Shown one piece after another: positions 40,288-47,176 of a stretch of DNA of 64,000 bases. The stretch spans positions 248,001-312,000 of the forward strand of contig JADZFU010000004.1 of the NCBI GenBank assembly GCA_020854265.1, given 5' to 3'. The notes under the pieces were generated by a model, which was given only the letters and a program-made list of their open reading frames with translations, did no database searches and had not been told where the DNA came from. The stretch's first letter is position 1. Each line of letters starts with the position of its first letter. Source of the DNA: Candidatus Uhrbacteria bacterium. Its GTDB lineage: Bacteria; Patescibacteriota; Patescibacteriia; 2-12-FULL-60-25. The position numbers and the translations under genes were made by a program.

Positions 40288-40375
40288 TGGCGGAGGAGGG
40301 GAGATTCGAACTCCCGATACCTTGCGGTATGCTTGCTTTCCAAGCAAGTGCACTAGGCCACTATGCGACCCCTCC
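40288..40375 (-). tRNA. tRNA-Ser(GGA), CCA encoded
   Basis: Minus strand GGAGGGG...CTTGC-TTGGAAA-GCAAG anticodon arm, long variable arm CATACCGCAAGGTATC, GGGAGTTCGAATCTCCC T-arm, CTCCTCCG-CCA end. Confidence 0.96.
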
Positions 40376-42027: not shown

Positions 42028-44577
42028 ATGCAAGACAAGATCGTCATCCGCGGTGCGCGCGAACACAATCTCAAAAATATCTCTTTGGAGCTGCCGCGCA
42101 ATAAAATGATCGTTTTTACGGGCTTGTCCGGATCGGGCAAGTCGTCTTTGGCATTTGATACGATTTTTGCCGAGGGTCAGCGCCGTTATGTCGAGTCTCT
42201 GTCGGCTTATGCACGACAATTTCTTGGGCAGATGGATAAACCGGATGTCGATGAGATCGAAGGGCTTTCGCCGGCCATCTCCATCGATCAAAAAGCGCAT
42301 TCGGCAAATCCGCGCTCCACGGTGGCCACGATCACGGAGATCTACGATTATCTGCGTGTTCTGTATGCGCGCGTCGGACGTCCGCATTGTCCCATTTGCC
42401 GCAAGCCAATCCGCAAGATGACCGTGGATGAAATGGTGGACCGAGTATTGAAACGTACGGACGAGATCCATCGCACGACGCATGTGAACGGGAAGAAACA
42501 AAAGTTCACAAATGAAGTGACCGTGCTTGCACCGGTGGTGCGCGGGCGCAAAGGGGAGTATCACCAGCTTCTTCAAGATTTGTTTGAAAGCGGATTTATC
42601 GATGTACGCGTGAATGGACGCATGTACAGTTTGCGCGACCGGATCCCTTTGGATCGATACAAGCAGCATACAATCGAGGTTGTGGTAGACCGCGTGCCGC
42701 TTGCGTGGCCGATCGAAGGCAATAAGCCATTGCAGACCCGTTTGAATGAAGCCATAGAGATGGCGTTGGACCGTGCCGAAGACAATGTCATGGCCATCCT
42801 TGATGATGGGAGCGAGCTGCTTATGTCCGCGCGCTTTTCTTGTCCGGATGACGGATTTGCCTTTCCGGAAATCGAGCCCCGTCTTTTTTCTTTCAATTCG
42901 CCTTACGGCGCATGTCCGACGTGTAATGGGTTGGGCACCAAAGAAATTTTTTCCGAGGAGGAGTGCGAAGCCTGTCACGGGAATCGTCTGCGTACGGAAG
43001 CGATGTACGTATGGCTGGGCGATAATAAAAATATCGTGGACGTGGCATCCATGCCGATCAATGCGGCGGCGGATTTTTTTCTCGCGCTTGATCTCAATAA
43101 AAACGAAGCATCGATTGCCGAGCCAATCATGCGCGAAATCCTTGCACGTCTCACCTTCTTATTGGATGTCGGCTTGGAGTATCTGACCTTGAACCGTAAA
43201 GCCGGATCTTTGTCCGGCGGAGAAGCCCAACGTATCCGTTTGGCATCGCAGATCGGTTCGCGTTTGGTAGGAGCCTTGTATGTCTTGGATGAACCCACGA
43301 TCGGCCTCCATCAGCGCGATAACCAGCGTTTGGTTGATACGCTGACCAAACTCCGCGATATCGGAAATACGATTATTGTCGTCGAACACGATGAAGACAC
43401 GATACGCGCATCGGATTGGCTGGTGGATATTGGTCCCGGAGCAGGCAAGCATGGCGGACATATCGTTGCCGAGGGCCCGATGCCGAAAGTCCTCCAAAAC
43501 AAAGACAGCCTGACATGCGCATATTTGCGCGGGGATAAACGCATCCCCATGCCGGCAAAACGCCGCGAAACAGCCAAAGAGCATATTACGATCCATGGGG
43601 CTTCAGAAAACAATCTAAAAAATATTACGGCCAAGATTCCGCTCAAGCGCTTTGTCTGCGTTACGGGCGTTTCTGGTTCGGGTAAATCGACTCTCACAAT
43701 CGACGTGCTGTATCGCGAATTGGCGCGCAAATTGAACGGATCAACCGTCAAAGCCGGCAAGCACGAGGGGATTGATGGTATCGATTGGCTGGATAAAGTC
43801 GTGGATGTCGATCAAAGCCCGATCGGACGCACGCCGCGTTCCAATCCCGCAACGTACACCGGTATTTGGAATCATGTGCGCGAATTGTATGCGCTCACGC
43901 CGGAAGCGCGCGTACGCGGATATAAAGTCGGACGGTTTTCATTCAATGTACCGGGCGGGCGATGCGAGCACTGCGAAGGCAATGGCCAGCTCGCTATCGA
44001 GATGCATTTTTTGCCGACCGTGTATGTGCCGTGCGATGTCTGCAAAGGACGCCGCTTCAACCGCGAAACGCTTGAAGTGAAATATCGCGACAAAAATATC
44101 CACGAGGTTTTGTCGATGACGGTAGAGGAAGGCGCGAAGTTTTTCCGAGACATTCCGCCGATTCATGACCGTTTGAAAATCATGTCGGAAGTGGGCCTCT
44201 CGTACATCACGCTCGGACAATCAGCCACGACGTTGTCCGGCGGCGAGGCGCAGCGCATCAAATTGTCGACGGAGCTTGCCAAGCGGGACACGGGGCGCAC
44301 GTTTTATCTTTTGGATGAACCGACAACCGGCTTGCACTTTGATGATATCCGCCGTTTATTGGAAGTGCTCCACCGTCTTGTTGCGCGCGGGAATACGGTT
44401 CTCGTTATCGAGCATAATCTCGACGTGATCAAGAATGCAGACTGGATTATTGATATGGGACCGGAAGGAGGAGATAAAGGTGGTAAAATCGTGGCACAAG
44501 GCACGCCGGAGGACGTCGCCAAGAGTCCAAAGAGCTTCACGGGAAAGTATTTGAAGGACGTATTGAAAAAACGATGA
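42028..44577 (+). CDS. uvrA: Excinuclease ABC subunit A (internally shortened)
   Basis: [40 protein letters not shown], two ABC signatures [17 protein letters not shown]...CDVCKGRRF zinc finger. Confidence 0.97.
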
Positions 44578-45836
44578 TTCCATCCCACATCAAAATTAAG
44601 AATGGCGAATTGCCGGCGAGCCCGGGCGTGTACATCATGAAAAACGCCAAGGGAACGGTTTTGTATGTGGGCAAAGCCGTATCGCTCAAATCCCGCGTAC
44701 GCCAGCATTTTGACCGTCCGCATGGTCCGCATATCCCGGAAATGACCAAGCAGGTGACCGAGATTGATTACATTACCAAGCCGACGGCACTTGAAGCGCT
44801 GGTACTTGAAGCGAATCTCATCAAGCATTTTTGGCCAAAATATAACGTACTGCAGAAAGACAATACGTCTTTCATGTATTTGGCAATTACGGACGAGGAT
44901 TATCCGCGGCCGCTCCTGGTCCGCGGGACCGATCTCGATGATGAGTCAGCGAAAAAATATAAAGTCGTATTTGGACCATATACATCATCACGCGCATTGA
45001 AAGCGGCGCTTGATTTGGTGCGCAAGGCGTTTCCTTGGTCCAATTGTAAACCGGGACAAAAACGAGCCTGCTTTAACGTGCATCTTAAATTATGTCCGGG
45101 CGTGTGTATTGATGCGGTTGATAAAAAAACATACCAGAAAACTATTCGGGATTTGATCCGTTTTTTTGAAGGCAAGAAAGAAGATATTCTGAAGGACTTC
45201 AAGAAACAAATGAATAAGCTGTCGAAGGAGAAAAAGTACGAAGAGGCGGCAATCATCCGCAATAAAGTATATTTTTTGGAGCATATTCAGGATGTGGCCG
45301 TGTTAAAACGTGACGATGAAATGGTGGACCGCATCAAACCGGGCGAGGGGATGGCGGTAAATTTGTTCGGCCGTATCGAGGGATACGATATTTCGAATAT
45401 TTCCGGCACATCACAGGTTGCTTCAATGGTTGTTTTTGAGAACGGAGCGCCGGCAAAAGCGGAGTATCGCAAATTCAAGATCAAAACAGTCGAGGGCTCG
45501 AATGATGTTGCATCGATGCGGGAGACTCTCATGCGCCGATTGAAGCACCGCGAATGGAGCAAGCCTGATTTGATTTTGATTGATGGCGGACTACCGCAAG
45601 TGCATGCGGCCGAAGAGGTACTGCATCATTTAAATGTACAGATTCCCGTAGTCGGAATTGCAAAAGGGAGGGAACGTAAGCGCAATGACATTATTTGTTC
45701 GCGTGTCTCGGTTGAGCTCTGCGAGCTTTGCAATACATATGTAGACCTTCTTGCGCAGGTGCGCGATGAAGCCCACCGATTTGCGATTACCTATCATAAA
45801 AAAGTGCGATCCCGGACTTTTTTACCAAAGTCGTGA
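44574..45836 (+). CDS. uvrC: Excinuclease ABC subunit C, short form
   Basis: GIY-YIG domain ([33 protein letters not shown]), UVR-like motif, UvrC RNase H domain ([33 protein letters not shown]). Confidence 0.95.
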
Positions 45837-45846
45837 TACAATAAAC

Positions 45847-45875
45847 TTGCAGGATCAAAATGGTTCTGCTACAAT
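45847..45875 (+). promoter_or_regulatory. Promoter TTGCAG-N17-TACAAT
   Basis: Spacing places the start of transcription at the base of the structured leader. Confidence 0.6.
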
Positions 45876-45879
45876 TTCC

Positions 45880-45974
45880 GTCCCTGGATGATTCATCTCA
45901 AGATAAACGTTTTGTCGAAAGACGAGGCCTAGAATCTTGAGGAGAGTGTTCCAGGGCTAACATTAGCCATTATT
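45880..45974 (+). promoter_or_regulatory. Structured 5' leader RNA of NUDIX/IDI-like gene (candidate cis-regulatory RNA)
   Basis: Nested inverted repeats CCCTGGA/TCCAGGG, CTCAAGAT/ATCTTGAG, GTTTTGTC-GAAA-GACGAGGC, then GGCTAA-CA-TTAGCC just before ATG. Confidence 0.65.
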
Positions 45975-46574
45975 ATGGAACATCTTGAAATCGTAAATGA
46001 AAATACAGGCAAACCAACAGGCGTTGTTCTCCCGCGTCACGAGGTAATTGCCAAAGAAGCTTGGTGCCGCTCTACCAATGTCTTTGTGCTGAATCACAAC
46101 GGCGAAATTTTGTGCCACCAGCGCTCGCTTATCAAAGACAGCAAGCCGGGTTGGTGGATGACACATTTAGGCGGACGTGTCGGAGTCGGGGAGACGTATG
46201 AAATCAATGCGTTGAAAGAATTGGAGGAAGAGGCGGGGATTATTGTCCCGGCCAAACGGCTGATTCCGTGGCGTACAACGCGCGTCGAGGCTTCGCGCTT
46301 TTGGTCGCGCGAGTTTGTCACGGTGTATGACGTTCCGGCCGAGCAGCTGGTTCCGCAACCGGGTGAAGTCGAGCAGTTCAAATGGATGTCTATCGACGAA
46401 ATTGTTGCGGCCGCAAAATCAGGTCAGGAAAATTGGAAAGCGGGCACGCACGATATCATGTCGGAGTATTCCTGCATGCTGTCCGTGATCGGATCCGCAC
46501 ATCACCTCGGAGTGCATGAAGTTCCGGATTCGCTCCACACTTGGACGCCGGTGTGGATGGGAGCAGGAGTATAA
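45975..46574 (+). CDS. NUDIX hydrolase, isopentenyl-diphosphate isomerase-like
   Basis: MEHLEIVNENTGKPTGVVLPRHEV..., GGRVGVGETYEINALKELEEEAGI (Nudix box). Confidence 0.88.
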   Translation: MEHLEIVNENTGKPTGVVLPRHEVIAKEAWCRSTNVFVLNHNGEILCHQRSLIKDSKPGWWMTHLGGRVGVGETYEINALKELEEEAGIIVPAKRLIPWRTTRVEASRFWSREFVTVYDVPAEQLVPQPGEVEQFKWMSIDEIVAAAKSGQENWKAGTHDIMSEYSCMLSVIGSAHHLGVHEVPDSLHTWTPVWMGAGV

Positions 46575-46618: not shown

Positions 46619-47176
46619 ATGAATCAAAAATCGAATATACACGCAATCATTATCGGTTTGCTGGTGTTGTGTCTATTGCTTACGGGTGGAGGAATTTTCC
46701 TTTTAAATGAACAAATCAATGATTTGAGAATGGTTATCGCCCCGACTACGTCTGCACCGGTCGGTGGAAAGATTGCTGTTGAAAGGTTCTGCGACAACGA
46801 AGCAGGAGGAACGGGTCTATGTTTTGATTATCCAAAGTCTTGGTCGGTTTCGCATTACAGCGATTCATTTACGAGCGGACAAAAAAATCTCGAGATTTCT
46901 GCGAACGCCGCTGGTGGAAAAGTCACCATCGAGCGTTTACATAAAGGCCAGAAGGGTATGAAAGGACAAAGAATTCCTGAGTATCCTGGTTTGTACGAGT
47001 TAGGAGAGCTTTGCTCGGATGATGATGGGCTTACGTGTCCCCAGTATCCTTACTATCTAACGCTCGACGGCGATCAGACGGCTTTCGCAGTGCGCGTCTA
47101 CTATCGCTGGGAGGATCGTACGGAGGTGCAACCGTTGGTGAATACGATTCTTTATAGTCTAGAGATTGGACCGTAG
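46619..47176 (+). CDS. Membrane-anchored/secreted hypothetical protein
   Basis: N-terminal TM; TATACT box 9 nt upstream of ATG. Confidence 0.7.
   Translation: MNQKSNIHAIIIGLLVLCLLLTGGGIFLLNEQINDLRMVIAPTTSAPVGGKIAVERFCDNEAGGTGLCFDYPKSWSVSHYSDSFTSGQKNLEISANAAGGKVTIERLHKGQKGMKGQRIPEYPGLYELGELCSDDDGLTCPQYPYYLTLDGDQTAFAVRVYYRWEDRTEVQPLVNTILYSLEIGP

Follow-up and report, generated by a model that had tools for sequence, protein, structure and literature searches.

What does a strongly structured leader do in front of a NUDIX gene, and what, if anything, does it sense? The question arises from one locus in the 64,000-nucleotide stretch of DNA analysed here (the window), where a first-pass annotation had proposed a candidate riboswitch or cis-regulatory RNA. 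Three outcomes had been set beforehand as counting against the proposal, namely a match in Rfam, no covariation in the orthologous leaders, and homologues lacking the leader, and none of the three occurred. We find that the leader belongs to a family of structured leader RNAs that is new, narrow in distribution and tied to one NUDIX clade. Its description as a cis-regulatory RNA is well supported, and the leader is very probably a real cis-regulatory element; that it is a riboswitch is possible only. The features of the locus are as follows.

45847-45875, plus strand: promoter, with -35 TTGCAG, a 17-nt spacer and extended -10 TGC-TACAAT, from the sequence and promoter-like sites at orthologous loci
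45882-45888, plus strand: P0 5' strand CCCUGGA, an outer extension specific to the window, pairing with 45950-45956
45891-45894, plus strand: P1 5' strand AUUC, pairing with GAGU at 45944-45947; from the fold and the family helix
45897-45904, plus strand: P2 5' strand CUCAAGAU, pairing with AUCUUGAG at 45934-45941; a conserved, covarying family helix
45905-45908, plus strand: 5' side of the purine-rich internal loop, AAAC here, about UnGAA in the family
45909-45928, plus strand: P3 hairpin GUUUUGUC-GAAA-GACGAGGC, varying in length and sequence across the family
45929-45933, plus strand: 3' side of the internal loop, CUAGA here, about CGGGAA in the family
45934-45941, plus strand: P2 3' strand AUCUUGAG, from the fold and the family alignment
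45943, plus strand: on the 3' strand, the mismatched A that separates P2 from P1, read from the alignment
45944-45956, plus strand: P1 and P0 3' strands, with G45955-G45956 common to the downstream hairpin
45955-45974, plus strand: terminator-like hairpin GGCUA-ACAU-UAGCC followed by AUUAUU, ending at the start codon; a candidate, weak expression platform
45886-45952, plus strand: stretch that the covariance models match as the core of the element (coordinates from R2)
45975-46574, plus strand: putatively regulated NUDIX gene, 199 aa, with a YfcD/IDI-like fold and a Pfam NUDIX match

The promoter consists of TTGCAG at 45847-45852 and TACAAT at 45870-45875, separated by 17 nucleotides, with the extended -10 TGC at 45867-45869. 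It agrees with the consensus at 8 of 12 positions, below the 9-of-12 threshold of the promoter scan, and orthologous leaders carry promoter-like sites in the same place. An independent promoter with a transcript start at about 45880 had been proposed; the promoter stands, and the start would lie nearer 45882. The proposed helices were likewise all found where they had been placed, and P0, P1, P2 and P3 are present in both the MFE and the centroid structure. The MFE of the leader was -41.5 kcal/mol, compared with -22.3 ± 3.6 kcal/mol for 200 dinucleotide shuffles (z = -5.37), none of which folded as well. A second hairpin at 45955-45968, described as sharing two G residues with the long stem, does so and scored as terminator-like. 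The NUDIX gene has no SD, as had been noted, and this is usual here, an SD-like 4-mer being present in just 9 of the 48 long ORFs in the window. Upstream lie uvrA (42028-44577) and then UvrC (44574-45836), which has 420 aa against 574 positions in the TIGR00194 uvrC model. Downstream lies a gene (46619-47176) that adjoins the NUDIX gene in this genome only; its 185-aa product matches nothing in Pfam or NCBIfam and likely carries a membrane or signal segment at its N terminus. A minus-strand tRNA gene at 40291-40375 is the sole Rfam match in the window. Within the leader there is a 14-codon ORF, MIHLKINVLSKDEA, at 45888-45932, for which the orthologous leaders have no counterpart.

To what extent is this leader conserved? 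Among 381 genomes sampled in the class, orthologues of the NUDIX protein (47-60% identity) were present in 11 other genomes, and in 10 of these the same architecture lies upstream of the gene. Fourteen Patescibacteria NUDIX leaders, including that of the window, combine helices P1 and P2, set apart by a mismatched A, with a purine-rich internal loop and then a variable P3, following the pattern ...UUG-Y-CUCAAGA-(nnGAA)-GC-P3-GC-(GGGAAn)-UCUUGAG-A-CAAG.... In the window the mismatch is A45895.A45943; the corresponding A of the orthologues stands opposite C, as a mismatch, or U, as a pair. The 14-member alignment shows the internal loop to be purine-rich and partly conserved, with conservation residing mainly in the helices and the one A and the loops being variable. 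The element accompanies homologues of the gene, in 14 orthologues and probably a fifteenth.

Compensatory changes were found in the orthologous leaders. A MAFFT alignment made without structural information gave a consensus fold of 18 pairs, of which 13 showed compensatory changes; our alignment fitted to the covariance model is biased towards the structure, but the unguided alignment agrees with it. Across the 14 sequences pairing was kept in 90.1% of cells, compared with 71.6% after shuffling and 29.8-49.2% when partners were slid, and both sides changed in 14 of the 18 pairs (46 cells), a level that no shuffle reached. The covariation score was 0.540 versus 0.204. In a tree-aware test written for this analysis and run in given-structure mode, 6 of the 18 proposed pairs reached E < 0.05; with all column pairs competing none did so, this test being underpowered at 14 sequences.

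Covariance model searches gave a consistent picture. Model R1, built from the leaders first aligned, found three members outside its training set (L069, L070 and L071; E = 2e-9 to 2e-8). Model R2 was built from the 13 other members and contains no letter of the window, the placement of its rows having come from R1, which did include the window; on the 64-kb window it gave a sole match at 45886-45952 on the plus strand (27.9 bits, E = 3e-6). The window leader is a genuine but divergent member of the family. An R2 scan of 362 genomes under stricter filters missed the window, so such scans are not exhaustive. Searching 57 relatives for DNA similar to the leader returned the window alone, which indicates that the element keeps its structure more than its sequence. 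These data also bear on whether the hairpin has any regulatory role at all; it could otherwise be a chance fold, a mobile inverted repeat or the terminator of the gene upstream. Because the element is an inverted repeat, R1 also gives its opposite strand a weak score; the coding strand scores much higher, however, the element occurs once in its genome of 1.0 Mb, the other loci have different upstream genes, and the RNA has covariation and its own promoter. We regard the absence of a role as very improbable.

The probable fifteenth member, a Peregrinibacteria leader (L067:2085-2240), gave no score with the covariance models. Read from its sequence, P1 would be formed by CUUUCUG/CAGAAGG and P2 by GUUAUCUU/AAGAUAAC, with a bulged A between them; in its predicted fold, that 3' strand is instead taken up by a strand further downstream whose end is UUAUUUUUU. 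It probably has the same switch architecture in unrelated sequence.

The distribution of the element is narrow. In the class-wide scan, 12 of the 381 genomes have the NUDIX gene and 11 have the motif, and all 11 strong matches lie directly upstream of this gene. Weak R1 or R2 matches (L044, L045, L054-L061 and L084) were rejected, having no NUDIX orthologue downstream and mostly falling in other coding sequence. A tree of 23 NUDIX proteins groups seven that lack the element in a single clade with full support; the remaining 16 are 14 with the element, L067 and L078, the last of which has an unstructured leader lacking the element though its protein belongs to the element-bearing clade. Flanking genes are hardly shared across loci while leader and gene stay together, so the two travel as a unit. 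A comparison of neighbours and operons for clues to the substrate found no notable genes in common. A pattern scan of viral contigs gave no match, nor did a contig scan with the single window protein; with a protein alignment as query the latter search succeeded. Elsewhere in our genome samples, which covered the class and the phylum, the matches are weak and unrelated, so that within them the element is confined to this NUDIX clade; the sister clade lacks it.

We next consider the protein. The first-pass annotation had likened it to an IPP isomerase or related NUDIX hydrolase, and of these a hydrolase is the more likely. The gene product matches Pfam NUDIX (E = 8.8e-19), and the NUDIX box GX5EX7(K)EUXEEXGU can be read from its sequence, with Lys in place of Arg. 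The structure was predicted with a pLDDT of 93, and its structural matches ranked E. coli YfcD first (2fkb; Foldseek E = 4.5e-14, TM-score 0.83 by target length), followed by DR_0079 (2o5f) and type I IPP isomerase (1nfs). The protein is like all three in fold and unlike them in sequence, with just 16-27% identity. The catalytic Cys67 of IDI aligns with Gly66, which is invariant in the 23 relatives, and type I IPP isomerase was rejected as an assignment for want of the catalytic Cys; because a Gly stands there, sequence and model suggest that the protein is probably a hydrolase rather than an isomerase. W30-C31, C47-H48, W154, H159 and C167 are invariant or nearly so in this NUDIX group, which suggests an extra metal or structural site atypical of YfcD and IDI.

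Could the NUDIX protein, or another RNA-binding protein, bind the hairpin and so control the gene, without the RNA sensing any small molecule? Such autogenous or protein-mediated control would fit the strict one-to-one link of the RNA with a single gene family, and conserved helices with one A and variable loops are what a protein-bound hairpin might look like. Against this, no leader element accompanies the sister NUDIX clade, and the modelled protein consists of a plain NUDIX domain, with no added RNA-binding domain evident. We consider protein binding unlikely, with the caution that loops as weakly conserved as these seem to be argue against presuming a metabolite aptamer.

The regions flanking the motif point to how the leader might act. 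Promoter-like sites, many of the extended -10 form TGnTAnnnT, lie 3-24 nt upstream of most motifs, with a summed promoter score of 123 compared with 89 ± 5.5 in shuffles (maximum 101), and the leader is therefore probably transcribed independently. Between the motif and the start codon, most members also contain a hairpin that resembles a terminator and is followed by a U-rich tail, and in seven (L062, L065, L069, L070, L071, L074 and L076) this hairpin starts inside the P1/P2 3' strand. The cleanest terminator is that of L071, ACAAGAG-GUUAUAA-CUCUUGU followed by UUUUUAUUUU, in which the 5' arm is the P1 3' strand. Elsewhere the P1 3' strand has a separate partner: GAGACAAGC/GCUUGUCUC in L066, CAAGCGG/CCGCUUG in L064, and one spanning 13 bp in L075. 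In the fold of L066 the partner, once freed by P1, can pair with the 5' arm of the terminator (GUCUCGC/GCGGGAC). The L071 arm and the L066 partner together indicate that the folded element favours expression. Summed over the 14 members, alternative pairing of the P1/P2 3' strand amounted to -153.4 kcal/mol, compared with -112.6 ± 7.3 kcal/mol in shuffles, the best of 300 shuffled sums being -136.2 kcal/mol. Half of the members have the C.A mismatch, which may lessen the stability of P1/P2 compared with the alternative, in which the A pairs with U. No clear re-pairing of the P1/P2 3' strand was seen in L063 or L068. The switching half of the arrangement is weakest in the window itself, where direct P1 re-pairing was not significant. 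Its alternative hairpin has 5 bp and an interrupted U-run (tail AUUAUU) and ends at the AUG; a fold forced to contain it has -38.9 kcal/mol compared with -41.0 kcal/mol, at a cost of just two P0 pairs. This hairpin may act through weak termination or by controlling access to the start codon.

A balance of this kind need not involve a ligand. The competition of P1/P2 with the hairpin could make the leader an attenuator or an RNA thermometer, sensing temperature, transcription speed or ribosome loading, and in 5 of the 14 members (L062, L064, L065, L076 and the window hairpin) the two folds differ by no more than about 2.5 kcal/mol. Several members, though, prefer the folded form by 8-18 kcal/mol, and the sequence conservation of P1/P2 and the constant position of the internal loop exceed what a plain thermometer would need, which makes a ligand-free device distinctly improbable. 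Leader-peptide attenuation is also unlikely, upstream ORFs in the orthologous leaders being conserved in neither place nor frame.

On balance we favour a self-promoted, cis-regulatory ON-type switch in the leader of a NUDIX hydrolase gene. In this switch the leader would be transcribed from its own promoter ahead of the gene. When P1, P2 and P3 are folded, the P1/P2 3' strand would be sequestered and expression would be ON; when the element is unfolded, that strand would pair downstream, the terminator-like hairpin would form at or near the start codon, and transcription would stop. We infer both the control of transcription by re-pairing and the ON state of the folded form, and competition between the folded element and the terminator seems quite probable. 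That a small molecule is the trigger we put at almost an even chance. It would be a metabolite connected with the enzyme, in the simplest case the substrate or a diphosphate resembling it, and induction by the substrate would result. A new class of metabolite riboswitch confined to Patescibacteria, turning on the NUDIX hydrolase as its substrate accumulates, is a tentative proposal that we hold at rather less than even.

Patescibacteria are ultrasmall bacteria that are hard to culture, and little is known of their regulation. The leader RNA offers a handle on the substrate of the NUDIX enzyme, as the sensed molecule is likely to be related to the enzyme's target; if the riboswitch reading is true, identifying the ligand would also disclose the substrate. 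An inducible switch is a missing tool for Patescibacteria genetics (PMC11665869), and the element could serve as a natural one.

How does the leader compare with known systems? The first-pass annotation could match its architecture to no riboswitch consensus, and a scan against all families of Rfam 15 (ykkC/guanidine/PRPP/ppGpp, T-box and the catalogued riboswitches) bore this out, giving no gathering-score match for the window or orthologue leaders and only chance snoRNA scores at permissive E-values. The open-access papers searched described no Patescibacteria-specific riboswitch or leader RNA and no similar motif, and an earlier description outside Rfam is possible. The ykkC subtype 2c riboswitch senses (d)ADP and (d)CDP and controls NUDIX and HAD hydrolase genes (PMC7266159). 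Like it, our leader RNA precedes NUDIX hydrolase genes and expression would be expected to rise with ligand. Unlike it, the leader consists of one long hairpin interrupted by a single mismatch and an internal loop, matches none of the ykkC models, and has so far been found in Patescibacteria alone. With terminator-controlling ON riboswitches it shares an aptamer-like domain whose P1 3' strand, in most members, is also part of a terminator-like hairpin or its partner, whereas its loops are weakly conserved. As in the orphan riboswitch candidates (PMC7266159), a conserved leader RNA lies beside a gene of uncertain function, although here the distribution is very narrow, with one gene family and about 15 members. 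The leader is plausibly an orphan riboswitch with ON logic, and its nearest functional analogue is the ykkC-2c (d)NDP riboswitch.
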